Origin: Diplonema papillatum | Lineage: Eukaryota; Euglenozoa; Diplonemea; Diplonemida; Diplonemidae | DNA: 64,000 bases | Reading direction: 5' to 3' | Assembly: GCA_030068145.1 (NCBI GenBank) | Contig: JAPJBO010000002.1 | Location: forward strand, 744,001-808,000 | In this document: piece after piece, positions 16,705-64,000 of the stretch | How positions within the stretch are numbered: position 1 is the stretch's first letter | How the letters are laid out: the number at the start of each line of letters is the position of its first letter | Translations under genes and position numbers: made by a program | Notes under the pieces: generated by a model | Told to the model about the DNA's origin: nothing | Seen by the model: only the letters and a program-made list of their open reading frames with translations | Database searches by the model: none

Positions 16705-18267
16705 TTAAGGGGCTGCCAGGCGTCGTAGGGAATGGCTGTGCAGCCACGTTTCGTCAAAGACTTGGGGCACCTCCAAGCCGATGGACGCCGGTTGTGGAAG
16801 CTCGCTCGCGCCGCTCATCAGGAGCAGGACTCGCTGCAGGACTTTGTCGTCCCGGGAAAGCTTCTCGACGAACTCCATGTCCCTGCGGCCGAACGCCTCT
16901 TTGTACTTCTCGGACCACTCCTCGCCGATCGACCCGTCGAACAGCGCCCAGACGCCTTGCACCTGGCTGTATGTCTTCAGGTTCAGCTCGTAGACGAGGG
17001 TCACCCCGCGCGGCAGCTGCCACGCGTGCACGGGCCGCGTGTGGATTTGGGTCGTGGTGTCGGTCGCGGCGCTCGGGCTGCCGGCGAGAAGGCAGAACGT
17101 GGACAGGTGGTGGGCGCCGAGGGAAAGTGCGTGGCTGAGCTCGATCGGCGCGCCGAGGCACGTGACGAACCGGTGCTTCGCGTTGCCGAGGGTCCCGTGC
17201 AGCACCTTCCCCGTGGCCATGCCCGTGGACACCGACTGGGCCCACACCGTATCCCTCACGCACTGGTACACATGCGATACAAACTTCGCGCCCTGGACCA
17301 CATGCTGCCCGCAGCTCCGCCCCGCGTTCCAACCCAGGAGGACGTAGCTCCCGCATATCCCGTTGACCAGCCCTTCGGTCCGCTCGACGCCGTCGAGCGT
17401 GAACGAGACGAGCTCCGCGGCAGCGGACACCGCGCTCGGCACGTCGAGCAGGCACGAGTGGTCGACGGACATGTGCACGACCGTGCCGGTGGAGGCGTTC
17501 AGCACGTTTTTGATGGTGTAGCCGCCGCCGCCGCCGCCGGCGAAGGCGCCGGACCGGTCGAGCATGTCGACGCGGGGAGCGGGGGACGAGTGCTGCTTGA
17601 CGACGGGGAGGTGCTGCGGGCTGACGGCGGGCGCCGACGCCGCTTTGTCGGCCATCGCGCGCTGCGCGTCTTGCACGCGCGCCTCGAGCGACCGGGGGAA
17701 GCACGCGTAGAGCGATACCAGCCCTACTCCCTTCAACTCGTACGGGCCCATCGAAGTGACAATGGGCGCTCCAGGCTCGCCCAGGGTGTGTGCAACGGCG
17801 TCGAACACTTCCTCCGTGAACGCGATGGCGCCTCCCACCGCCGCCGACTCAACCCGCGACGCCTTGTTGACCGTCGGGCCCATGTAGTCAAACCTGCCCG
17901 TCGTCGGATTCACCTCCAAGCGGACGTGCCCGGTGTGGATCCCAATGCGGATGCGGAGCCCCCGCCACTGCCGGCAGTTCGAAGGCCCCACCGGTTTGCA
18001 CAGCGGGTGCGTGAGGATGTCGTCCGGCCACTTGGCTTCCACGAACGCCTCTTGCACAGAGGCGGAGAACTCCAAGCCGCCGACCGGCGTGTCGAACGAG
18101 ACCATGAAGGCGTCGCCGATGGTCTTGACCTCGTAGCCACGGTGGGTGTGCACAGTCTTCCGCATGATGTCGTTGTGGAGGTCCATAGCTTCTCGCATGG
18201 CCCCGGTGTGCTTCTCCCACAGGTCTGTCGAACTCTGCACGTCGGTGAAGACGATCGTCGCGTGTGA
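16705..18267 (-). CDS. class III adenylate cyclase, catalytic exon
   Basis: This exon would convert ATP to cAMP. It opens after a minus-strand acceptor (..ATCACCAG at 18268) with SHATIVFTDVQSSTDLW, so the first metal-binding Asp is in FTDVQ. The second is in KTIGDAFMV. IGIHTG and VNKASRVE supply the glycine-rich turn and the Asn and Arg that stabilise the transition state. The Lys of EVKTIGD and the Asp of RFDYMG are the residues of adenylate rather than guanylate specificity. A second cyclase-like region follows (TGKVLHGTLGNAKHRFVTCL) but lacks the metal, Asn and Arg positions, so it is probably regulatory. The stop is at the 16705 end. No start codon lies in this exon, so the N-terminus must come from an upstream exon, most likely 26082-27068. 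The 3' end is partly duplicated at 16205-16704. Confidence 0.85.
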   Translation of the reverse strand, partial: SHATIVFTDVQSSTDLWEKHTGAMREAMDLHNDIMRKTVHTHRGYEVKTIGDAFMVSFDTPVGGLEFSASVQEAFVEAKWPDDILTHPLCKPVGPSNCRQWRGLRIRIGIHTGHVRLEVNPTTGRFDYMGPTVNKASRVESAAVGGAIAFTEEVFDAVAHTLGEPGAPIVTSMGPYELKGVGLVSLYACFPRSLEARVQDAQRAMADKAASAPAVSPQHLPVVKQHSSPAPRVDMLDRSGAFAGGGGGGYTIKNVLNASTGTVVHMSVDHSCLLDVPSAVSAAAELVSFTLDGVERTEGLVNGICGSYVLLGWNAGRSCGQHVVQGAKFVSHVYQCVRDTVWAQSVSTGMATGKVLHGTLGNAKHRFVTCLGAPIELSHALSLGAHHLSTFCLLAGSPSAATDTTTQIHTRPVHAWQLPRGVTLVYELNLKTYSQVQGVWALFDGSIGEEWSEKYKEAFGRRDMEFVEKLSRDDKVLQRVLLLMSGASELPQPASIGLEVPQVFDETWLHSHSLRRLAAP

Positions 18268-18430
18268 CTGGTGATCAGCAGGGGCGTCGAGACGAGGCGG
18301 GTACCTGGTTTTACGTTTGGATTCGGAGTGTTGTGGAGTATTGCGGAGTATTGTACTTCGCCAAAAAAACCTTTCTATCCAAACCTACCCCTTCCCCTTT
18401 CGGCATCCTATGTATACCGCATACTTCTTC

Positions 18431-23293: not shown

Positions 23294-24981
23294 ATGCCCG
23301 ACGCCGGCTCTTTGCCTCGGCAGGTCGTGGGCCTGAAATCGCGGAGATCCAGGTTGCTCAGGGGAAGGAGGCTTTTTCTACGGCTTCACCCACACTTTTA
23401 CGACCCTCCCACCACAGTCCCCCTCGGATACCTTCCGCCGGAAACCAGAGGTCTCGTCCCGGCGGTCGGTGCTCCGAGGTCGGCGAAGCCGCTTGACGTC
23501 ACGGCGGTACCTCCGATCGACCTCCGTGCGCTCCGGGATCTCGCCAGGCCCGGAGCCCGGTTGCACAGCCTGCTCGACCTCCTCACGGACGGACACGCTT
23601 TCCGACGGAGGCTACTGGGCACGCCGCTCGTGCCGGGTCGGAAGAGCGACGCGTTTGCGCACCATGCGGTGACGCTGGAGGGCGTCGGCTTTGTGGAACG
23701 CGTTCCCCGCTCGGAGCCGCTGAAGTGCGTACTGCCGGCGTTCGCTGTCGAGAAGGGGGAGCACCACTCCCGTGCCATCGTCGATGGCCGCCCGCTGAAC
23801 GAGCTGATGGAGCCTCCGCCGAAGTTCAGCCTCTTGCGTGTCGACGAGGTCATCGCCAAGATGATGTCGAAGTCGCACGCAGTCGTCGTCGACCTGAAGT
23901 CCTACTTCTTCCAGTTCCCGTGGGACGGTCGACGTCGGCTTTCTTCGGGCTCCGGACCAGGAGGCCCGACGGGGGCGTGGCTCTGTATCGGTGGCGCCGG
24001 CTTACGATGGGCTGGTCGTTCTCGCCCGTGATCGCACAGGACTCTGCGCTGGTCATCACGGAAACCGCCGGGGACGATAGGATAGTCTGGTACGACGACT
24101 GGGCCCTCGTCGGTGACTGTCCGGACGCGCTTCGCGCTGTGCGCGACCGAGTCCTGCGACGCGCCCGCAAGGTGGGCATGACGGTCAACGACGAGAAGTC
24201 CGTCCTCGAGCCCAGCTCGACGCCGGTTGTCTTGGGAGTCGAGTTCGACCTCGCGGCGAAGAGATACCGGCTGAAGCAAGAGTGGGCGAGGAAGGCGCAC
24301 CTCCTCTTTTGCTCGGTCGATTCGACGCGGATGACTTTGCGTGGCGTTTGGAAGGTCGTCGGGACCGCTATTTGGGCGTGGACGGTGTGGGGCACGCCGC
24401 TCTGCAGGGTGAGCCCGGTGCTTGCGTGGATGGGAACCCTGGCGCACCAGGTCCTGACCGGTTCCCTGGGCTGGGAGTCGCTGGTCCGCGTGAGCGACGA
24501 CGTTTTTCCGTTCCTTGCGGGAGTGAGACGGCGTCTGTCGGGCAACCGGTGGGTCGTTTTCGACTCGAAGCAACGGGACACCCTCGTGGAGGCGTGGTCC
24601 GACGCCAGCATGCAGGGATGGGCCTGGCTGGTGGGTTCCATGGCGATGTGGGGCCCGTGGAGGGATGTCCCGCAGCACATCTTCTTCGCTGAGCTGACGG
24701 CGGCGAAGTTCGCGATTGCGTACGCGGCTTCTCGCTCTCCGCTGTCGACGATCAGGATCTTCGTCGACAACTTGCCCGCCGTCAACTGCTTGAGGAACTG
24801 GAAGTCGAAGACCCAGCTCGGGAACTTCATCCTGTGCAAGGTCCGCGACGTCTTGGAGGAACACCAGTGCGTCCTCGAGACTGTATGGGTCCCGACTGCT
24901 GAGCAACTGGCAGACGTCTGGACGCGGGACCCATACAGGCAGGGCATCCAGCCGCCCCGGACCCCGTTCTGCGTTGCATGA
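23294..24981 (+). pseudogene. reverse transcriptase-RNase H, frameshifted
   Basis: The first part (ATG at 23294) holds the RT fingers and palm start: AIVDGRPLNELMEPPPKFSL and motif A VVVDLKSYFFQ. Close to 23920-23930 the homologous frame shifts by one base. The second frame carries LTMGWSFSPVIAQD, then motif C as VWYDDWALVG (WYDD rather than the usual YxDD), then an RNase H domain with its four acidic residues in WSDAS, FAELTAA, VDNLPAV and LADVWTR. It stops at 24981, about 110 bases before B1. The shift could be a damaging indel, a sequencing error or a programmed frameshift. No slippery heptamer is obvious to me. Confidence 0.85.
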
Positions 24982-30574: not shown

Positions 30575-31110
30575 AAACTTTACACCCGAACTTAGCTTCG
30601 CCCGGACTTTGTTTCGCCCGAACTTAGCTTCACCCGAGCTTTGCTTCGCCCGAACTTTGCTTCACCTAACTTTGCTCACCCGAACTTAGCTTCGCCCGAA
30701 CTTTGTTTCGCCCGAACTTTGTTTCGCCCGAACTTAGCTTCACCAGAACTTTGCTTCACCCGAACTTAGCTTCGCCCGAACTTTGCTTCACCAGAACTTA
30801 GCTTCGCCCGAACTTTGCTTCACCCGAACTTAGCTTCGCCGAACTTTGTTTCGCCCGATCTTAGCTTCACCAGAACGTCCGAACTTTGCTTCACCCAGAA
30901 CGTAGCTTCGCCCGGACTTTGTTTCGCCCGAACTTAGCTTCACCTTCGCCCGAACTTTGCTTCACCAGAACTTTGCTTACGCCCGAACTTTGCTTCGCCC
31001 GAACTTTGTTTCGCCCGAACTTTGTTTCGCCCGAACTTAGCTTCACCCGAACTTTGCTTCACCAGAACTTAGCATTGCCCGAACTTAGCTTCGCCCGAAC
31101 TTTGCTGTTC
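30575..31110 (+). repeat. tandem repeat of CCCGAACTTNGCTTC units
   Basis: Roughly 15-16 base half-units alternate between TTCGCCCGAACTTTG and TTCACCCGAACTTAG, giving a ~31-base dimer with many variants. The same repeat occurs in reverse orientation at 63872-64000. Next to each array is a shared block GCTGCCTCCAGTCTCGCC (31128 and 63728). Confidence 0.92.
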
Positions 31111-31189
31111 CCCGAACTTTAACTGCTGCCTCCAGTCTCGCCACGCGCCGGCCTTAGCCGAGCGCACTTAATTTATTTTTTTATTTCTC

Positions 31190-33744: not shown

Positions 33745-35290
33745 CTTATGTGTGACAGGTCGAGCGCGTTGGCCACGTGCTGTGCGCGCAGGATACACGC
33801 GTCTGTTGTTGCTTGACGGCGGCTACTCGACTCCACATACAGGCTAGCGTCGCGCCTGGCACACTGACCGGGTCTTTGGAGAACCCTCGATTCCGGACGT
33901 AAACCCAGGTGCTGTGCAGGCTGGCGGTCTGTGTTGCTTCAGCAGCCTGTTTCACTACCACGGTGTCCCGCGCTCTGCACTTGGGGTACGCGCGTCTGAT
34001 AGTGGCGGTTTGTTGTTGCTTCTCGGCAGCTTGTTCACAATTCAACAATGTCTCCGACACGGTGCCGCTTCTTATGACAAGGTTTGAGCGCATTGCCCGC
34101 GTGCTGTGCGCGCCGGATACGCGCATCCGTTGTTTCTTGACGGCAGCTACTCAGGAGACCACAGCCAGGTTTATCTCTGAAGTTGGCAGCGTCGCGCCCG
34201 AGTTTTCGTGGTTAGGCGCTTGTGGAACTCTCGACTCCGGACGTAAATCCACGTTCCGTGAGCACGCCGCTTACACGATGATCTTCACCCCGGGTAGTTT
34301 GTTGCGGGACGGAGGTATGTTGTTGAATCTCGGCAGCTTGTTCACAATTCAACAAGTTCTCCGACACGGTGCCGCTTCTTATGACAGGTTTGAGCGTATT
34401 GTCCGTGTGCTGTGCACGCTGGATATACGATCGTCTTCACCCCGGGTGGTTTGTTGCCGGATGGCGGTCTGTTGCTGCACCTCGAACGTTTTCACAGTTC
34501 AACCATGTCTCCGTCACGGTGCCGCTTTTTATGACAGGTTGGGCGCACTGCTCGTGTGCTGTGCACGCCAGCCGGATACACGATCATCTTCACCCCGGAG
34601 GACAATTCAACAAGTTCTCCGACACAGTGCCGCTTCTTATCACAGGTTTGAGAGCATTGTCCGTGTGCGGTGCACGCCGGATACACAATCATCTTCACCC
34701 CAGGTGGCTTGTTGCCGGATGGAGGTCTGTTGTTGAATCTCGGCAGCTTGTTCACAATTCAACAAGTTCTCCGACACGGTGCCGCTTCTTATCACAGGTT
34801 TGAGCGCATTGTCCGTGTGCGGTATCATGTTCACCCCGGGTGGTTTGTTGCCGGATGGAGGTCTGTTGTGGAATCTCGGCACTTGTTCACAATTCAACAA
34901 GTTCTCCGACACGGTGCCGCTTCCTATCACAGGTTTGAGCGCATTGTCCGTGTGCGGTATCATGTTCACCCCGGGTGGTTTGTTGTCGGATGGAGGTCTG
35001 TTGGTTAATCTCGGCAGCTTGTTCACAATTCAGCCACGTCTTCGATACGGTGCCGCTTCTTATGACAGCTTGAGTGCACTGCCCGTGTGTTGTGCACGCC
35101 GGATGCACGCATCCGTAGTCGCTTGACGGCAGCTACTCAGGAGACCACAGCCAGGCTTCTCGCCGAGGTTGGCAGCGTCGCGCCCGCCACGCTGTCCGAG
35201 TCCTCAGCGGTTGAACGCGCATTGCGGAACTCTCGATTCCGGACGTGAATCCACGTGTGCCATGAGCACGCCGGATACACGATCATCCTT
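33745..35290 (+). repeat. degenerate tandem repeat, ~140-150 bp units
   Basis: Units contain TTCACAATTCAACAAGTTCT, CCGACACGGTGCCGCTTCTT, CAGGTTTGAGCGCATTG and a TTGCCGGATGGAGGTCTGTTG segment. At least seven full or partial units run from 34021 to 35100, with longer, older units on both sides. The array abuts the 3' end of the channel gene. Confidence 0.85.
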
Positions 35291-36022
35291 ACCCCGGGGG
35301 CGGTCTGCCGCTGGCCGGCGGCAGCCTGCTGAGAACTTCTCGCAGCAGGCCTTCGACGTTGGCCAGGCGCGTCTCCGACGCGTGCAGCCGGACCTCGAGG
35401 GTTTTCGCTTGGTACGCAGACAGCGAGCTGCGGTCGTCCTCCCTGCCGGATACCGACGGCGCCGCGACTTCGAGCAGGGTCGTCTCGAAGGAGATGCCGA
35501 TGGGCTTCATCGCGGGCGCTGTAGTGGGGTCCGAGGAGTCAATCTCGAGGAAGGAGTCCTTCGACTCCTTCTTCATGCGCCGGAACTTCAGCTCGCCAAG
35601 CGGCGGCGGCGACGACGAGGCGAACGACGCCTTCGCCGCCTTCTTCCCGAACTCGTTCCGCGGTGAGCAGTTGGGGTCGCTGCCTCTCTCTCCGCGGGGC
35701 TTGAGCGACGACGGCTCCGGGTTCGCGCTCAGCGTCAGGTCTGTGCTCAGGCAGCTGACGCTCGCGTTATCGGCGGCGACGGCCTGCGCCTCCTGCTTCG
35801 GCGCCGGCGGCGGCGGCGGCAGGTGCGCCGCAGCGGCGGCCTGCGAAAGCCGCTTCTGCATGCCCAGCTGCTCCTTCCGAGAGGCGGCCTCCTTGTCGAC
35901 CACCTGCCGGAACTTCGGGAAGCGGGCGAGGATGTCGAGGAAGTCTTCCTTGTTGAGGCAGTACAGGTCGCAGTACGTCAGTGCCCGCACCGAAGCTGTG
36001 CGCTTGCTGTCGCCGTCACGAG
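35289..36022 (-). CDS. terminal exon of cyclic-nucleotide-binding K+ channel
   Basis: The exon starts after a strong acceptor (pyrimidine tract then CCCGCAG, AG at 36024-36023) in phase 1 with ARDGDSKRTASVRALTYCDLYCL. This supplies the Arg of the phosphate-binding cassette and the last strand and C-helix of the cyclic-nucleotide-binding domain (FLDILARFPKFRQVVDKEAA). A Ser/Pro-rich cytosolic tail follows, then a coiled-coil-like end (AKTLEVRLHASETRLANVEG), and the stop at 35289. The joint with exon 3 (42129) restores frame exactly: TTTG + CTCGTG gives F-G-A-R-D. The first 171 bases of this exon (36022-35852) are the segment amplified in the adjacent array. Confidence 0.9.
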
Positions 36023-36250
36023 CTGCGGGTGGGGAGAGAAAGAGACGTGAGTGAGCAAGAACAGGTACAAGAGGTTTCCCCGGTACTACCGAAACTGGGG
36101 TGATGCTGTGATAGGAGTGGATAGTTTCACCAAGACAACAGTAGTAAAGCCGTGGTAATACCGAGAATTCGAGTGTTGTAGTATGGAGCGGATAGTTCAC
36201 CAAGAAGTAAGAGTAAGTAGCTAGTATTACGAGTGGATAGTCGACCCAGA

Positions 36251-39200
36251 CGCTTCTGCATGCCCAGCTGCTCCTTCCGAGAGGCGGCCTCCTTGTCGAC
36301 CACCTGCCGGAACTTCGGGAAGCGGGCGAGGATGTCGAGGAAGTCTTCCTTGTTGAGGCAGTACAGGTCACAGAACGTCAGTGCCCGCACCGAAGCTGTG
36401 CGCTTGCTGTCGCCGTCACGAGCTGCGGGTGGGGAGAGAAAGAGACGTGAGTGAGCAAGAACAGGTACAAGAGGTTTCCCCGGTACTACCGAAACTGGGG
36501 TGATGCTGTGATAGGAGTGGATAGTTCACCAAGACAACAGTAGTAAAGCCGTGGTAATACCGAGAATTCGAGTGTTGTAGTATGGAGCGGATAGTTCACC
36601 AAGAAGTAAGAGTAAGTAGCTAGTATTACGAGTGGATAGTCGACCCAGACGCTTCTGCATGCCCAGCTGCTCCTTCCGAGAGGCGGCCTCCTTGTCGACC
36701 ACCTGCCGGAACTTCGGGAAGCGGGCGAGGATGTCGAGGAAGTCTTCCTTGTTGAGGCAGTACAGGTCGCAGTACGTCAGTGCCCGCACCGAAGCTGTGC
36801 GCTTGCTGTCGCCGTCACGAGCTGCGGGTGGGGAGAGAAAGAGACGTGAGTGAGCAGGAACAGGTACAAGAGGTTTCCTCGTACTACCAAAACTGGGGTG
36901 ATGCTGTGATAGGAGTGGATAGTTTCACCAAGATAACAGTAGTAAAGCCGTGGTAATACCGAGAATTCGAGTGTTGTAGTATGGAGCGGATAGTTCACCA
37001 AGAAGTAAGAGTAAGTAGCTAGTATTACGAGTGGATAGTCGACCCAGACGCTTCTGCATGCCCAGCTGCTCCTTCCGAGAGGCGGCCTCCTTGTCGACCA
37101 CCTGCCGGAACTTCGGGAAGCGGGCGAGGATGTCGAGGAAGTCTTCCTTGTTGAGGCAGTACAGGTCGCAGTACGTCAGTGCCCGCACCGAAGCTGTGCG
37201 CTTGCTGTCGCCGTCACGAGCTGCGGGTGGGGAGAGAAAGAGACGTGAGTGAGCAGGAACAGGTACAAGAGGTTTCCTCGTACTACCAAAACTGGGGTGA
37301 TGCTGTGATAGGAGTGGATAGTTTCACCAAGATAACAGTAGTAAAGCCGTGGTAATACCGAGAATTCGAGTGTTGTAGTATGGAGCGGATAGTTCACCAA
37401 GAAGTAAGAGTAAGTAGCTAGTATTACGAGTGGATAGTCGACCCAGACGCTTCTGCATGCCCAGCTGCTCCTTCCGAGAGGCGGCCTCCTTGTCGACCAC
37501 CTGCCGGAACTTCGGGAAGCGGGCGAGGATGTCGAGGAAGTCTTCCTTGTTGAGGCAGTACAGGTCGCAGTACGTCAGTGCCCGCACCGAAGCTGTGCGC
37601 TTGCTGTCGCCGTCACGAGCTGCGGGTGGGGAGAGAAAGAGACGTGAGTGAGCAGGAACAGGTACAAGAGGTTTCCTCGTACTACCAAAACTGGGGTGAT
37701 GCTGTGATAGGAGTGGATAGTTTCACCAAGATAACAGTAGTAAAGCCGTGGTAATACCGAGAATTCGAGTGTTGTAGTATGGAGCGGATAGTTCACCAAG
37801 AAGTAAGAGTAAGTAGCTAGTATTACGAGTGGATAGTCGACCCAGACGCTTCTGCATGCCCAGCTGCTCCTTCCGAGAGGCGGCCTCCTTGTCGACCACC
37901 TGCCGGAACTTCGGGAAGCGGGCGAGGATGTCGAGGAAGTCTTCCTTGTTGAGGCAGTACAGGTCACAGAACGTCAGTGCCCGCACCGAAGCTGTGCGCT
38001 TGCTGTCGCCGTCACGAGCTGCGGGTGGGGAGAGAAAGAGACGTGAGTGAGCAAGAACAGGTACAAGAGGTTTCCCCGGTACTACCGAAACTGGGGTGAT
38101 GCTGTGATAGGAGTGGATAGTTCACCAAGACAATAGTAGTAAAGCCGTGGTAATACCGAGAATTCGAGTGTTGTAGTATGGAGTGGATAGTGCACCAAGA
38201 AGTAAGAGTAAGTAGCTAGTATTACGAGTGGATAGTCGACCCAGACGCTTCTGCATGCCCAGCTGCTCCTTCCGAGAGGCGGCCTCCTCGTCGACCACCT
38301 GCCGGAACTTCGGGAAGCGGGCGAGGATGTCGAGGAAGTCTTCCTTGTTGAGGCAGTACAGGTCACAGAACGTCAGTGCCCGCACCGAAGCTGTGCGCTT
38401 GCTGTCGCCGTCACGAGCTGCGGGTGGGGAGAGAAAGAGACGTGAGTGAGCAAGAACAGGTACAAGAGGTTTCCTCGTACTACCAAAACTGGGGTGATGC
38501 TGTGATAGGAGTGGATAGTTTCACCAAGATAACAGTAGTAAAGCCGTGGTAATACCGAGAATTCGAGTGTTGTAGTATGGAGCGGATAGTTCACCAAGAA
38601 GTAAGAGTAAGTAGCTAGTATTACGAGTGGATAGTCGACCCAGACGCTTCTGCATGCCCAGCTGCTCCTTCCGAGAGGCGGCCTCCTTGTCGACCACCTG
38701 CCGGAACTTCGGGAAGCGGGCGAGGATGTCGAGGAAGTCTTCCTTGTTGAGGCAGTACAGGTCACAGAACGTCAGTGCCCGCACCGAAGCTGTGCGCTTG
38801 CTGTCGCCGTCACGAGCTGCGGGTGGGGAGAGAAAGAGACGTGAGTGAGCAAGAACAGGTACAAGAGGTTTCCCCGGTACTACCGAAACTGGGGTGATGC
38901 TGTGATAGGAGTGGATAGTTCACCAAGACAATAGTAGTAAAGCCGTGGTAATACCGAGAATTCGAGTGTTGTAGTATGGAGTGGATAGTGCACCAAGAAG
39001 TAAGAGTAAGTAGCTAGTATTACGAGTGGATAGTCGACCCAGACGCTTCTGCATGCCCAGCTGCTCCTTCCGAGAGGCGGCCTCCTCGTCGACCACCTGC
39101 CGGAACTTCGGGAAGCGGGCGAGGATGTCGAGGAAGTCTTCCTTGTTGAGGCAGTACAGGTCACAGAACGTCAGTGCCCGCACCGAAGCTGTGCGCTTGC

Positions 39201-41209
39201 TGTCGCCGTCACGAGCTGCGGGTGGGGAGAGAAAGAGACGTGAGTGAGCAAGAACAGGTACAAGAGGTTTCCTCGTACTACCAAAACTGGGGTGATGCTG
39301 TGATAGGAGTGGATAGTTTCACCAAGATAACAGTAGTAAAGCCGTGGTAATACCGAGAATTCGAGTGTTGTAGTATGGAGCGGATAGTTCACCAAGAAGT
39401 AAGAGTAAGTAGCTAGTATTACGAGTGGATAGTCGACCCAGACGCTTCTGCATGCCCAGCTGCTCCTTCCGAGAGGCGGCCTCCTTGTCGACCACCTGCC
39501 GGAACTTCGGGAAGCGGGCGAGGATGTCGAGGAAGTCTTCCTTGTTGAGGCAGTACAGGTCACAGAACGTCAGTGCCCGCACCGAAGCTGTGCGCTTGCT
39601 GTCGCCGTCACGAGCTGCGGGTGGGGAGAGAAAGAGACGTGAGTGAGCAAGAACAGGTACAAGAGGTTTCCCCGGTACTACCGAAACTGGGGTGATGCTG
39701 TGATAGGAGTGGATAGTTCACCAAGACAATAGTAGTAAAGCCGTGGTAATACCGAGAATTCGAGTGTTGTAGTATGGAGCGGATAGTTCACCAAGAAGTA
39801 AGAGTAAGTAGCTAGTATTACGAGTGGATAGTCGACCCAGACGCTTCTGCATGCCCAGCTGCTCCTTCCGAGAGGCGGCCTCCTCGTCGACCACCTGCCG
39901 GAACTTCGGGAAGCGGGCGAGGATGTCGAGGAAGTCTTCCTTGTTGAGGCAGTACAGGTCACAGAACGTCAGTGCCCGCACCGAAGCTGTGCGCTTGCTG
40001 TCGCCGTCACGAGCTGCGGGTGGGGAGAGAAAGAGACGTGAGTGAGCAAGAACAGGTACAAGAGGTTTCCTCGTACTACCAAAACTGGGGTGATGCTGTG
40101 ATAGGAGTGGATAGTTTCACCAAGATAACAGTAGTAAAGCCGTGGTAATACCGAGAATTCGAGTGTTGTAGTATGGAGCGGATAGTTCACCAAGAAGTAA
40201 GAGTAAGTAGCTAGTATTACGAGTGGATAGTCGACCCAGACGCTTCTGCATGCCCAGCTGCTCCTTCCGAGAGGCGGCCTCCTTGTCGACCACCTGCCGG
40301 AACTTCGGGAAGCGGGCGAGGATGTCGAGGAAGTCTTCCTTGTTGAGGCAGTACAGGTCACAGAACGTCAGTGCCCGCACCGAAGCTGTGCGCTTGCTGT
40401 CGCCGTCACGAGCTGCGGGTGGGGAGAGAAAGAGACGTGAGTGAGCAAGAACAGGTACAAGAGGTTTCCCCGGTACTACCGAAACTGGGGTGATGCTGTG
40501 ATAGGAGTGGATAGTTCACCAAGACAATAGTAGTAAAGCCGTGGTAATACCGAGAATTCGAGTGTTGTAGTATGGAGTGGATAGTGCACCAAGAAGTAAG
40601 AGTAAGTAGCTAGTATTACGAGTGGATAGTCGACCCAGACGCTTCTGCATGCCCAGCTGCTCCTTCCGAGAGGCGGCCTCCTCGTCGACCACCTGCCGGA
40701 ACTTCGGGAAGCGGGCGAGGATGTCGAGGAAGTCTTCCTTGTTGAGGCAGTACAGGTCACAGAACGTCAGTGCCCGCACCGAAGCTGTGCGCTTGCTGTC
40801 GCCGTCACGAGCTGCGGGTGGGGAGAGAAAGAGACGTGAGTGAGCAAGAACAGGTACAAGAGGTTTCCTCGTACTACCAAAACTGGGGTGATGCTGTGAT
40901 AGGAGTGGATAGTTTCACCAAGATAACAGTAGTAAAGCCGTGGTAATACCGAGAATTCGAGTGTTGTAGTATGGAGCGGATAGTTCACCAAGAAGTAAGA
41001 GTAAGTAGCTAGTATTACGAGTGGATAGTCGACCCAGACGCTTCTGCATGCCCAGCTGCTCCTTCCGAGAGGCGGCCTCCTTGTCGACCACCTGCCGGAA
41101 CTTCGGGAAGCGGGCGAGGATGTCGAGGAAGTCTTCCTTGTTGAGGCAGTACAGGTCACAGAACGTCAGTGCCCGCACCGAAGCTGTGCGCTTGCTGTCG
41201 CCGTCACGA
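36251..41209 (-). other. 13 intact cassette-exon copies of the cNBD exon
   Basis: Copies start at 36421 and every 399 bases up to 41209, each 171 bases long. Each keeps the pyrimidine-rich acceptor, an open phase-1 reading frame and a GT immediately after AAGC (AAGC|GTCTGG). Phase is 1 on both sides, so any number of copies could be included without a frameshift, each adding 57 residues. Variation is limited: ALTY or ALTF, and DKEA or DEEA. The donor is weak (GTCTGG), although the channel's own exon 1 also uses a GTC donor (CAG|GTCCGT). If the donor is not used, reading on gives about 40 intron-coded residues and a stop, that is, an alternative short C-terminus. Confidence 0.75.
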
Positions 41210-41426
41210 GCTGCGGGTGGGGAGAGAAAGAGACGTGAGTGAGCAAGAACAGGTACAAGAGGTTTCCCCGGTACTACCGAAACTGGGGTGATGCTGTGAT
41301 AGGAGTGGATAGTTCACCAAGACAACAGTAGTAAAGCCGTGGTAATACCGAGAATTCGAGTGTTGTAGTATGGAGTGGATAGTGCACCAAGAAGTAAGAG
41401 TAAGTAGCTAGTATTACGAGTGGATA

Positions 41427-41597
41427 GTCGACCCAGACGCTTCTGCATGCCCAGCTGCTCCTTCCGAGAGGCGGCCTCCTTGTCGACCACCTGCCAGAAC
41501 TTCGGGAAGCGGGAAAGGGTGTCGAGGAAGTCCTCCTTGTTGAGGCAGTACAGGTCGCAGTACGCCAGTGCCCGCACCGAAGCCGTCGCCGTCGCGA
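41427..41597 (-). pseudogene. broken outermost cassette-exon copy
   Basis: This copy, the first met after exon 3, lacks 11 bases relative to the others (the AGCAAGCGCACA segment) and has several substitutions (DTLSRFPKFWQVV). Entry in phase 1 gives the wrong frame, so its use would truncate the protein within the binding domain. The acceptor CCCGCAG is kept. Confidence 0.75.
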
Positions 41598-41850
41598 GCT
41601 GCGGGTGGGGAGAGAAAGAGACGTGAGTGAGCAGAAACAGGTACAGAAAGGTTTGCAGTGAGCCCGGGTACTACCGAAGGGGGTGATGCTGTAATAGGAG
41701 TGGATAGTTCACCAAGACAACAGTAAAGCCGCCCGGTAATACCGAGAATTCGAGTGCTGTCGTATGGAGTGGATAGTGCACCAAAGAGCACGAGCAACCA
41801 GCTAGTATTACGAGTGGTTAGTTCCCCCAGACGCTTCTGCATGCCCAGCT

Positions 41851-42128
41851 CGGCGGCATAATCGCAAATGGTATCCTTCTTACTCGCAATGCGTGTACTA
41901 TCAGGTATATTAAGGGGTGGCGTGAGTACCTTCGTGTTCGCTTGTATTCCGCGGGCTCTGCGCGCGGTTGGCTGTCTTCAGCGCGCTATCTCTTGTGGTG
42001 GAAAAAATGTATCTTCAAACGCTGGGGTTTCAGAATCCTCCGGGGGACTTTCATTTCCGTGCAACATGTTCTTTAGGTGCGGCTTCTAGTGTTACCGGAT
42101 GGGTGTTCGAATCTGAAGAATGCCATAC
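41851..42128 (-). other. intron 3, unique part
   Basis: Intron sequence between exon 3 (donor GTATGG at 42128) and the exon array. No separate gene seen. Confidence 0.6.
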
Positions 42129-42315
42129 CAAAGACCAACGCCATTTCTCCGAAGAACATGCCTTTTCGTATTGTGGCGAGATGCTGTCCCGTCGGCTGTA
42201 GGACCTCTGCAACTCCATGCCCCAGGAAGTACATCTCCTTGCCTATCTCGCCTGCGCAGATGATGAACTCGTGCGGCTGGACAACAGTGTTGCACAGCGA
42301 CTGCGCGATGGCTAC
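42129..42315 (-). CDS. channel exon 3: cyclic-nucleotide-binding domain beta-barrel
   Basis: 187 bases between a CCTCAG acceptor and a GTATGG donor. It encodes VAIAQSLCNTVVQPHEFIIC, AGEIGKEMYFLGHGVAEVL and KGMFFGEMALVFG: the beta-roll of a cyclic-nucleotide-binding domain with the FGE of the phosphate-binding cassette. It enters in phase 0 and leaves in phase 1, matching the array exons exactly. Confidence 0.9.
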
Positions 42316-42814: not shown

Positions 42815-42862
42815 CTTGCACTCGTCGTGGACAGCGTTGAACAGCGGCACTTTCGACACGAG
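42815..42862 (-). CDS. channel exon 2: start of cyclic-nucleotide-binding domain
   Basis: A 48-base microexon in phase 0 on both sides (acceptor ..ACTAAAG, donor GTATGC). It encodes LVSKVPLFNAVHDECK, the classic VPLF entrance to the binding domain after the C-linker. Its position between exons 1 and 3 and its exact phase confirm it despite its size. Confidence 0.88.
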
Positions 42863-43104
42863 CTTTAGTTTCACATACAGCGAAAGTTGATCCTGTTAGT
42901 GTTAATTAGTGCATGGGTAGAAAAGACATCGTGTATAGGTACTGCCACGTAATGATACCCACAAAAAAACGCGTCCCGTGCGTAGGCGCGTGCTTGTTGT
43001 AGTGCCCATGCATGTTCTACAGCAATTGTCCTGGAGCAGATTCCAAGCGCAAATGGTCATGATATTTGCTGCGAGTGGCGGAAACCAACAAAGGAACGAC
43101 GGAC

Positions 43105-45171
43105 CTGCATGTTTGTGGGGAGCGCGTCTATTATTTCGCTGTAGGCTGATGAAAGGTTGTGGTCGAGGATGTGGTGCTGGAAGCTGAGAATCTCGTACTG
43201 GATGGACGCCGGAATGCGGAAGAAGCGGAGAATGTTCACCATTTCGACCATCTTCGCCTTCCGCTCGGACGTGATGTCCGAGCGGGAGAGCACCTTGTTC
43301 ATCTTGGAAACGACGAAGCCGTTGATCACGGCGCCCGCCACAAACAACCCGCAAGCGAACGTCTTTTGCAAGACGGTGGTGACCTCGATGTCCCCATACC
43401 CCACTGTGGTCACCGTGTACAGCACGATGTAAATGGCGTCCAGGTACTCTTCACTGAACGGCCTGGCCGCCGAGGCGGTCACCGAAGCGGGCGACAACGT
43501 ATTGTTGGCCCCCACAGTGACCAACACATCATCTTTGTCCGGCGCCAACAGCAACCAGACAACCGCGAACCAGTGGACCGAGGCAGCCAGCCAGAAGGCG
43601 AGTTGTATGAGAGGCACTACTGAGTAGAGGAAAGAGATGTAAGCCGGAGTTAACAAGCGGAGGCCGCCGGATGAAGAGAAGAACGATGGGATGCGGAAGA
43701 CTTTGAGGAGCTTCAAGGAGCGGAGCCCGTTCTTCCACGTGTTGTTCGTGATGAAAAACTCGATGGGCAACGACGACACGAGGTCCGCGAGGAACCCGTT
43801 GCGGAGGTAATGGTGGACGATGTCCTTCTGCTTCATGTCGTGCGCGTCCACCTCGATGACCGTGACCTGCGGAATCGTGCCGAACTGCAGGAAGATGTCC
43901 CCTGCGAACACGAAGTGCAACAGGGCTTCGATGACGGTGAAGCCTTCGTATCTGGAAAGCTGCGAGGCGTATTGCAGCGTCACCGCGAAGCAATAGTAGG
44001 CGACGGCCATGAACATGAACCCGTCCAAGAACCACCGAGTCGGCGAGTCGACGAGGAAGAAGACGGACCGCATGGTCTCCGCGATGTAGCGCGCGGTCTC
44101 GTCGGTGTGCTCGCCGTCCTTCATCAGCTTCTCCTTGTGCTTCGCCATCAGCTCCACAAACTCCGGGAACTCGATTTCAAGCAGTTCTTCGTCCTCTCCC
44201 AGCGCTTCTTGAAACAAGGCTCGCAGGTCGTCGTCCGACATAGGGACGCCGAGACCTTGCATCATATTCCCGAGTTCATCAGCGTCTATCGTGCCTGACC
44301 CGTCGGCGTCGTACGCGCGGAACATGCGGTGGAAGTTGTTGTACTCCGCTTGCGTGATTTCGGCCGCGGTGCTGGCGTCGGGTTCTTTCTGGGCGGGCGG
44401 CCGCGGGCTCAGGGACCCTTTGTTCGGCGACGGCATCGGGCTCAGCGGCACCGGGCGGTTGCTGTTCCTGAGCCGCTTGATGCCCAGCCCCGCGTCGTCG
44501 GGCGCGGCGCACAGCGGGTTGACGGTGATCGACGACGCGCCGCCGAGTGTCGACGGCCGCCGGTAGTTGCCGAGCGAGCTCTGCGTAGTCACCGTGCGCA
44601 GCCCGGCCGACTCGACGGGCGAAGTCGGAGACGCAGGTGCGGTCGACCGCAGCTGCTTGTGCCGGGGCGAGCCTCTCGGGCTTGTAGGGACGCCCCCCCC
44701 TCCCATGCCGAGGTCGTCGTCCGCTCGGATCGACAGCACACTCGGCCTGCCGGCCCTCGCCATGCTGGCATTAATCCTCCGGCCAGCGCCGGCGTCGGTG
44801 CCCGGTGCGCTGTGCAGCTCCCTTCTCTGGCTGCGGATGCGCTTCGTCCGGCGGACGGACACGACGCTCGCGGCGCTCGAATCGCAGCTTTCCGCCGGGA
44901 TTGCGTTGGAGGTCGACATGTCGATCTCCTTCTCCGGTTCGAACGGCCGCACGGCGTCGCCCGGCAGGCACGCGTTGTTCTCCCGCGTCGCGGCTTGCTG
45001 CGTCGAGCTATCACCGTCGCTATCATCAGCGTCGACGCTTGGACCGAACGCGTCATCCGTGGCGAACAACGCGGTGGTTCCCGTCCCCATCGCAGAATCT
45101 TCGGTATCTTCCCGAAAAGAGGTCACGGAGACAAGCCGGGATTCGTCGGATGCGGCCGGCTTGCATGACAT
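43105..45171 (-). CDS. channel exon 1: EF-hand plus six-TM K+ channel and C-linker
   Basis: The ATG at 45171 gives MSCKPAASDESRL. A long Ser/Pro-rich N-terminus comes first, then an EF-hand with a full calcium loop (DADGSGTIDADE, about residues 285-300) and a second, degenerate hand (EDEELLEIEFPEF). Transmembrane helices follow, with an S4-like region (NGLRSLKLLKVFRIP) and the K+ selectivity filter TTVGYGDIEV before S6. A C-linker runs to ALPTNMQ. The donor is CAG|GTCCGT at 43104. The product is a HCN/CNG-superfamily K+ channel that could sense Ca2+ at its N-terminus and cyclic nucleotide at its C-terminus. S4 has few basic residues, so voltage sensing may be weak. An upstream in-frame non-ATG extension is ignored. 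Confidence 0.92.
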
Positions 45172-47589: not shown

Positions 47590-48915
47590 AAATCGGTGAG
47601 AGGGCCGTGCGCCCTGTCCCAGAGACTGTCCATGTGGCTTCTCCGGAAGAGGGCCTTGCGCCCTTCCCAGAGGCTGTCTCCGTGACTCCTCCGGAAGAGG
47701 GCCGTGCGCCCTTCCCAGAGACTGTCCATGTGGCTTCTCCGGAAGAGGGCCTTGCGCCCTTCCCAGAGGCTGTCTCCGTGACTCCTCCGGAAGAGGGCCG
47801 TGCGCCCTGTCCCAGAGACTGTCCATGTGGCTTCTCCGGAAGAGGGCCTTGCGCCCTTCCCAGAGGTTGTCTCCGTGACTCCTCCGGAAGAGGGCCGTGC
47901 GCCCTGTCCCAGAGACTGCCCATGTGGCTTCTCCGGAAGAGGGCCGTGCGCCCTTCCCAGAGACTGTCCATGTGGCTTCTCCGGAAGAGGGCCTTGCGCC
48001 CTTCCCAGAGGTTGTCTCCGTGACTCCTCCGGAAGAGGGCCGTGCGCCCTGTCCCAGAGACTGCCCATGTGGCTTCTCCGGAAGAGGGCCGTGCGCCCTT
48101 CCCAGAGACTGTCCATGTGGCTTCTCCGGAAGAGGGCCTTGCGCCCTTCCCAGAGGTTGTCTCCGTGACTCCTCCGGAAGAGGGCCGTGCGCCCTTCCCA
48201 GAGACTGTCCCGTGACTCCTCCGGAAGAGGGCCGTGCGCCCTTCCCAGAGACTGTCCATGTGGCTTCTCCGGAAGAGGGCCTTGCGCCCTTCCCAGAGGT
48301 TGTCTCCGTGACTCCTCCGGAAGAGGGCCGTGCGCCCTGTCCCAGAGACTGCCCATGTGGCTTCTCCGGAAGAGGGCCTTGCGCCCTTCCCAGAGGTTGT
48401 CTCCGTGACTCCTCCGGAAGAGGGCCGTGCGCCCTTCCCAGAGACTGTCCATGTGGCTTCTCCGGAAGAGGGCCTTGCGCCCTTCCCAGAGGCTGTCTCC
48501 GTGACTCCTCCAGAGGGCCGTGCGCCCTGTCCCAGAGACTGCCCATGTGGCTTCTCCGGAAGAGGGCCGTGCGCCCTTCCCAGAGACTGTCCATGTGGCT
48601 TCTCCGGAAGAGGGCCTTGCGCCCTTCCCAGAGGTTGTCTCCGTGACTCCTCCGGAAGAGGGCCGTGCGCCCTTCCCAGAGACTGTCCATGTGGCTTCTC
48701 CGGAAGAGGGCCTTGCGCCCTTCCCAGAGGCTGTCTCCGTGACTCCTCCAGAGGGCCGTGCGCCCTGTCCCAGAGACTGCCCATGTGGCTTCTCCGGAAG
48801 AGGGCCGTGCGCCCTTCCCAGAGACTGTCCATGTGGCTTCTCCGGAAGAGGGCCTTGCGCCCTTCCCAGAGGTTGTCTCCGTGACTCCTCCGGAAGAGGG
48901 CCGTGCGCCCTGTCG
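47590..48915. repeat. 48-bp minisatellite, two alternating unit types
   Basis: About 27 units of 48 bases, each containing GAAGAGGGCCNTGCGCCCTT and CCCAGAG. Type 1 continues ACTGTCCATGTGGCTTCTCC and type 2 GCTGTCTCCGTGACTCCTCC. Some units have a CCTGTCCCAG variant or a short deletion. Because 48 is divisible by three, long frames stay open on both strands. Diverged units outlie at 47410 and 49265-49380. Confidence 0.95.
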
Positions 48916-63871: not shown

Positions 63872-64000
63872 AAAGTTCGGGAAACAGTAAAGTTCGGGCG
63901 AAGCTAAGTTCGGGCGAAACAAAGTTCGGGCGAAGCTAAGTTCTGGTGAGGCAAAGTTAGTTCGGGTGAAGCAAAGTTCGGGCGAAGCTAAGCTAAGTTC
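63872..64000 (-). repeat. tandem repeat, inverted partner of 30575-31110
   Basis: AAAGTTCGGGCGAAGC and TAAGTTCGGGCGAAAC units, the reverse complement of the 30.6-kb array, running off the window end. Confidence 0.93.

Follow-up and report, generated by a model that had tools for sequence, protein, structure and literature searches.

The question raised by a 64,000-nucleotide stretch of the single-celled marine flagellate Diplonema (Paradiplonema) papillatum (assembly GCA_030068145.1, contig JAPJBO010000002.1, positions 744,001 to 808,000 of the forward strand; hereafter the window) is why the beginning of the last coding exon of a potassium channel gene is repeated there in tandem, and whether the copies contribute to the channel. 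The gene lies on the minus strand and encodes a K+ channel with EF hands and a cyclic-nucleotide-binding domain. Our analysis indicated that the repeats are very likely an exon-edge tandem array, that is, an expansion within intron 3 in which the intron's end, the acceptor and the initial 171 bp of the terminal exon were copied as one piece. In most transcripts, the splice from exon 3 would lead to position 36022 of the terminal exon, and the entire array would leave with the intron; judged from the sequence, the array is probably omitted from the mature mRNA.

The boundaries of the four coding exons, as well as the three donors of the gene, were placed by protein alignment. The reconstructed gene is as follows, with a slash marking the splice site:

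43105..45171, minus strand: coding part of exon 1, from the ATG at 45171 to the donor CAG/GTCCGT; it encodes the N-terminus, the EF-hand pair, the ion-channel domain with its TTVGYGD filter and the start of the C-linker
42815..42892, minus strand: exon 2, 78 bp, donor AAG/GTATGC; its junction peptides agree with those of relatives
42129..42315, minus strand: exon 3, 187 bp, early cyclic-nucleotide-binding domain, to GEMALVF; donor TTG/GTATGG, phase 1
36023..42128, minus strand: intron 3, 6,106 bp, which holds the array (from the gene reconstruction)
35289..36022, minus strand: working terminal exon; copy 0 of the 171-bp module (35852-36022), then the C-terminal tail, with the stop codon at 35289-35291

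Joining exon 3 directly to the terminal exon yields a single open frame with 3,066 bp of coding sequence and 1,021 amino acids. Four Pfam domains were matched above cut-off in this protein, namely PF00520 (Ion_trans), PF07885 (Ion_trans_2), PF00027 (cNMP_binding) and PF13499 (EF-hand pair), and these domains together with the TTVGYGD filter identify it as a cyclic-nucleotide-binding K+ channel with EF hands. The solved structures nearest by sequence, among the best 60 of 402, were SthK-like, hERG/EAG and HCN/CNG channels. The module occupies residues 778-834 of the direct-splice protein, and alignment to an SthK-like structure places it in the C-terminal part of the cyclic-nucleotide-binding domain, where an earlier note on this DNA had put it. 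The direct-splice junction reads GEMALVFARDGDSKRTASV, and its counterpart in P0002, the transcript-derived protein of the closest relative, reads GEMALVFARGGESKRTASV; GEMALVFAR, which spans the junction of exon 3 and the terminal exon, is identical in P0002, where the module is present once. A literature search, with most subscription papers and all bioRxiv preprints outside its coverage, returned no paper combining Diplonema, cyclic nucleotide and potassium channel.

Tandem Repeats Finder (TRF) reported one array at 35851-41850 with a period of 399, 15.0 copies and 97% matches, and each unit starts, in transcript order on the minus strand, with 228 bp of intron and finishes with the leading 171 bp of the terminal exon. 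This agrees with the earlier note, which had described a 171-base exon piece of a K+ channel multiplied with its intron in a 399-base tandem array. Besides the working terminal copy, the array comprises 13 intact copies, one that is broken and a remnant of 18 bp. Sixteen exact anchors define 15 spacings, of which 13 are 399 bp, one is 400 bp (at the terminal copy) and one is 394 bp (at the upstream end). The acceptor, the 171-bp open frame and AAGC/GT are retained in 13 of the 15 units (exon pieces within 36252-41210), and the phase is 1 on both flanks of the module; the count of 13, the two phases and the end of exon 3 at 42129 had all been claimed previously, and the anchors, the unit alignment and the gene reconstruction bear them out. 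In the terminal copy, the sequence reads AAGC/GG instead of GT and continues into the C-terminal tail. The 20 nt preceding the acceptor are identical in all 15 units. When the 271-Mb genome was searched with the intron part of the unit, 15 of 15 matches lay inside the array (repeat counts in this search are lower bounds, and very common words are skipped), which puts the array at a single genomic place. It is not a chance occurrence.

The units are listed below from TRF, anchors and unit alignment for the array as a whole, from anchors and unit alignment for copies 1 to 13, from unit alignment for copy 14 and from anchors for the remnant. Letters in brackets give the two variable residues, and the unit types A and B were named after inspection of their alternation.

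35852..41850, minus strand: entire array, 15 units, each about 399 bp long
36252..36422, minus strand: copy 1, intact (F, K)
36651..36821, minus strand: copy 2, intact (Y, K), unit identical to those of copies 3 and 4
37050..37220, minus strand: copy 3, intact (Y, K)
37449..37619, minus strand: copy 4, intact (Y, K)
37848..38018, minus strand: copy 5, intact (F, K), type B
38247..38417, minus strand: copy 6, intact (F, E), type A
38646..38816, minus strand: copy 7, intact (F, K), type B
39045..39215, minus strand: copy 8, intact (F, E), type A
39444..39614, minus strand: copy 9, intact (F, K), type B
39843..40013, minus strand: copy 10, intact (F, E), type A
40242..40412, minus strand: copy 11, intact (F, K), type B
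40641..40811, minus strand: copy 12, intact (F, E), type A
41040..41210, minus strand: copy 13, intact (F, K), type B
41439..41598, minus strand: copy 14, nearest to exon 3; acceptor and GT present, frameshifted by an 11-bp deletion and more diverged
41833..41850, minus strand: upstream edge of the array, where 18 bp of the exon end remain (AGCTGGGCATGCAGAAGC)

Three further ideas about the units were tried and rejected. A longer copy hidden beyond the 18-bp remnant gave a local score of 11, which 160 of 200 shuffles matched; one unit was folded as RNA and was not unusually stable (z -0.70, with 24 of 100 shuffles equally good); and a dispersed-repeat origin of the intron part is contradicted by the 15 of 15 genome matches within the array, in a search that skips very common words. 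As an observation in its own right, a 20-bp motif, GAGTGGATAGTTCACCAAGA, is found two or three times per unit within the intron part (36023-41832), with 37 sites in the window at no more than 3 mismatches where 0.01 would be expected by chance. This recurrence points to an older repeat inside the intron piece itself.

The copies differ very little from one another. Units 0 to 13 vary at 12 alignment columns, nine in the intron and three in the 171 exon positions (exon versus intron, Fisher p 0.25), and only two residues are variable among the modules of these units. The comparison of nonsynonymous with synonymous changes proposed in the earlier note was run and gave two against one, too few for a test of selection. 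The terminal copy carries Y and K, like the close relatives P0002, P0003 and P0004; Y has changed to F in copies 1 and 5-13 and K to E in four copies. Several units are identical (copies 2, 3 and 4; copies 6, 8, 10 and 12; copies 5, 7 and 11), and types B and A alternate without exception from copy 5 to copy 13 (permutation p 0.008); over copies 1 to 13, 10 of the 12 steps alternate (p 0.035). Three of the four 798-bp dimers are identical and the fourth is off by 2 nt. Near-identical units, part of them in 798-bp dimers, look like the result of a recent unequal amplification. With gaps counted, 61-69 of 409 alignment columns separate the upstream unit from the rest. The simplest history, which we infer for both the order of events and the recombination mechanism, is that an old duplication would have given copy 14, which decayed afterwards, and that a recent burst, by unequal exchange or replication slippage and partly as 798-bp dimers, would have given copies 1-13.

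Near-identity also raises the question of whether the number or order of the copies is an artefact of assembly. Runs of identical units, such as copies 2 to 4 and the three identical dimers, are where assemblers err. However, the unit types change along the array, the upstream unit has diverged to the extent given above, and PacBio reads were used for the assembly; a similar array is described as supported by long reads in the part of the genome paper cited here (PMC10161547). We consider such an artefact very unlikely.

The array lies in the nuclear genome of D. papillatum and resembles structures already described in the same species. According to the sections of Valach et al. 2023 (PMC10161547) on which we draw, dozens of D. 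papillatum gene models have edge repeats, and the example in a figure has a unit of approximately 400 bp, 12-13 copies, PacBio support and a diverged distal copy, with RNA-Seq indicating that the array is not in the mRNA. The channel array is like these repeat-bounded structures in that the edge of a gene and the adjoining non-coding DNA, here 171 bp of exon and 228 bp of intron, are arranged head to tail; it is like the example in particular in its unit of about 400 bp, its similar copy number, its more diverged most distal copy and its position beside an expressed part of a gene. It differs in several respects from the published cases as those sections present them. The named cases concern the 5' regions of genes and the 3' ends of first exons, whereas in the channel gene it is the last coding exon whose 5' edge has been copied with its cis acceptor, in intron 3, and 13 copies are still open and have splice-site dinucleotides at both ends. 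Within the coverage of our literature search, this was the only account of diplonemid edge arrays that we recognised.

The putative donor GT at the ends of the copies is simply the sequence formed at the boundary between successive units, with GG at the terminal copy. Its pairing to a generic U1 end, calculated for AGC/GTCTGG, is -3.5 kcal/mol, compared with -6.0, -5.7 and -4.7 kcal/mol for the putative donors of exons 1, 2 and 3; in three related Diplonemidae, the donor consensus is given as (G)/GTATG in the part of the source consulted (PMC12621601), and the unit junction conforms to it in part. Two protein searches, one with the terminal exon (lengths of approximately 134-427 amino acids) and one with the module plus the intron-encoded tail described below, turned up no gene model of D. 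papillatum that represents the array or the terminal exon within the lengths covered. The terminal-exon search produced one match among 4,588 candidates, a single-module relative. The module was matched in 29 of the 40 fetched proteins and occurred once in 24 of these 29; the other five (P0019, P0020, P0023, P0024 and P0035), which are distant, contain two to three mostly weak matches that stand hundreds of residues apart.

These data bear on the possibility that the copies are included in series, each being spliced in through AAGC/GT and adding 57 residues, up to a protein of 1,762 amino acids with all 13. The 1/1 phases permit this, and the frame remains open with 1, 2 or 13 added copies. 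However, the module is not a whole structural repeat: it overlaps only the end of the cNMP-binding match at residues 727-811, and since it is the last part of one binding domain, extra copies in series would come without the remainder of that domain. In addition, the donor is weak, and inclusion of copy 14 destroys the frame, which rules out obligate inclusion of all copies. Adjacent repeated modules were found in none of the 40 fetched proteins, with one search covering approximately 560-1,790 amino acids and scoring the 8,000 candidates that shared most words, and another covering approximately 134-427 amino acids. We regard serial inclusion as highly improbable.

Known systems in which exon copies are used provide further comparisons. 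Mutually exclusive clusters of the Dscam type comprise many exon copies between constant exons, and these copies are strongly diverged and have their own donors. The channel locus shares this arrangement of one multiplied exon flanked by constant ones, but differs in that only two residues vary among copies 0-13 and in that there is one shared downstream exon, which already contains the module. The earlier suggestion of a large alternative-splicing device thus loses its appeal, because there is almost nothing to choose between.

The kringle IV-2 copies of human LPA are present in the protein, and each is a whole domain. The LPA array is likewise intragenic, with a tandem unit of coding and intron sequence, and its copy number varies, but, in the descriptions drawn on here, its unit is 5.6 kb, and the channel module is only part of a domain. 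The arrays of 90-bp exons encoding leucine-rich repeats in Tetrahymena (PMC6564038) are also found in a protist and consist of exons of equal length and the same phase that expanded successively, for which the authors invoke unequal exchange; as far as the cited part of that paper goes, they differ from the present case in occupying thousands of genes, as coding exons that each lie within a leucine-rich repeat, whereas here a single gene and the edge of an exon are involved.

A different use of the copies would require only their acceptors, which are identical in every copy. Exon 3 could be spliced to one of the 13 intact copies, with the weak donor ignored, so that the copies serve as alternative last exons. 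The product would contain a complete cyclic-nucleotide-binding domain and would end 41 residues beyond GMQK, a short hydrophobic tail replacing the long native one, and the balance between short and long channels would change with the number of copies. All 13 intact copies lead to an 875-residue product whose tail follows the pattern RLGRLSTRNTSYLLLLLG...LLLLSW, and long 3' untranslated regions are usual in D. papillatum, according to the cited part of PMC10161547. On the other hand, copy 14 offers the first acceptor after exon 3, and its product is frameshifted, with a broken domain; the tail is translated intron and has no match in any of the 40 fetched proteins, and a protein search with the module plus tail gave no match among 55 candidates at E <= 0.001. 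Splicing to alternative last exons is, in our judgement, unlikely. The more specific proposal that the array is a multiplied alternative last exon, in which copy number sets the rate at which exon 3 is captured and a fast-mutating repeat tunes the isoform ratio, appears quite unlikely.

Several observations weigh against an edge array that is simply removed with intron 3. First, the GT at the unit junctions agrees at 4 of 6 positions with the consensus used in the pairing test and may therefore work as a donor. Second, the 15 acceptors are identical over 20 nt, so that no adjacent sequence favors the terminal one. Third, copy 14 and copy 0 differ by substitutions at 8 of 160 exon sites and 30 of 225 intron sites (p 0.009), in addition to indels; this lower divergence of the exon may reflect past constraint on copy 14, or constraint on copy 0 alone. 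Fourth, E occupies the K/E column in 10 of 36 rows, and the change from K to E is thus not unusual among distant homologues. Fifth, the parallel with the published array is a qualified one, since that example stands at a 5' gene edge and an internal acceptor is concerned here. Finally, P0001, deposited at NCBI as 'Potassium channel SKOR [Diplonema papillatum]' and 100% identical to the gene over the aligned part, does not make the splice from exon 3 to the terminal exon; it reads past the exon-3 donor, gains 18 residues after GEMALVF and stops in intron 3. Because it ends inside the cyclic-nucleotide-binding domain, just before the array, the deposited model is probably incomplete. Its truncation may be an annotation failure or may represent a real short transcript; failures of annotation at repeats beside genes are described by the authors of the D. 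papillatum genome in the sections cited (PMC10161547).

Three readings had been offered for this locus in the earlier note, and they did not fare equally. The splicing device is a weak reading, and alternative C-termini were retained as the unlikely rival set out above. A recent neutral expansion is the best supported of the three, owing to the near-identity of the copies, the dimer steps, the donor that arises at the repeat junction, the broken copy 14, the single module in P0002 and the published arrays.

Tandem repeats are also present elsewhere around the gene. The 3' edge of the terminal exon is repeated as well:

34003..35298, no strand assigned: degenerate tandem repeats below the channel stop codon, with TRF units of approximately 135-152 bp

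Segments 34003-34294 and 34991-35298 share 80% identity over 310 bp, and these repeats extend approximately 7 nt into the last codons, with weaker similarity as far as 35310. Tandem arrays are common on this contig (C2): in C2:1-200000, 27 TRF rows were reduced to 20 non-overlapping tandem stretches with a period of at least 60 bp, counted irrespective of exon edges, and the 6-kb channel array is longer than every stretch in this 200-kb sample and every other array in the window. Another array with a 400-bp period (L035, C2:147425-148661) has 3.1 copies at 98%; no frame of at least 150 amino acids crossed its edge by more than 100 bp. The window itself contains the following:

47599..48914, minus strand for the frame: 145-bp (3 x 48) array of approximately 9 copies, upstream of the channel gene, with a 612-residue stop-to-stop frame through the array
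30585..31120: 16-bp satellite CCCGAACTTTGCTTCG, 33.6 copies; a motif similar by eye stands inverted at 63890-63992, at the end of the window
16705..18384, minus strand: 559-residue stop-to-stop frame that contains the catalytic domain of adenylate/guanylate cyclases (PF00211, E 8e-29), approximately 17 kb from the channel gene
23497..24981, plus strand: open frame that matches reverse transcriptase weakly (PF00078, E 1e-5) and falls short of the curated cut-off

The channel array is most likely another, unusually long and clean, case of the edge arrays already described in D. papillatum, and it suggests why the public model of the channel gene is probably incomplete. As a clean and recent example, in which a dimer step can be seen and fresh copies adjoin an old one that has decayed, it illustrates how diplonemid edge arrays may arise. 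It also constitutes a natural test of acceptor choice, as one intron holds 15 acceptors that are identical over 20 nt and the last alone leads to the native protein.

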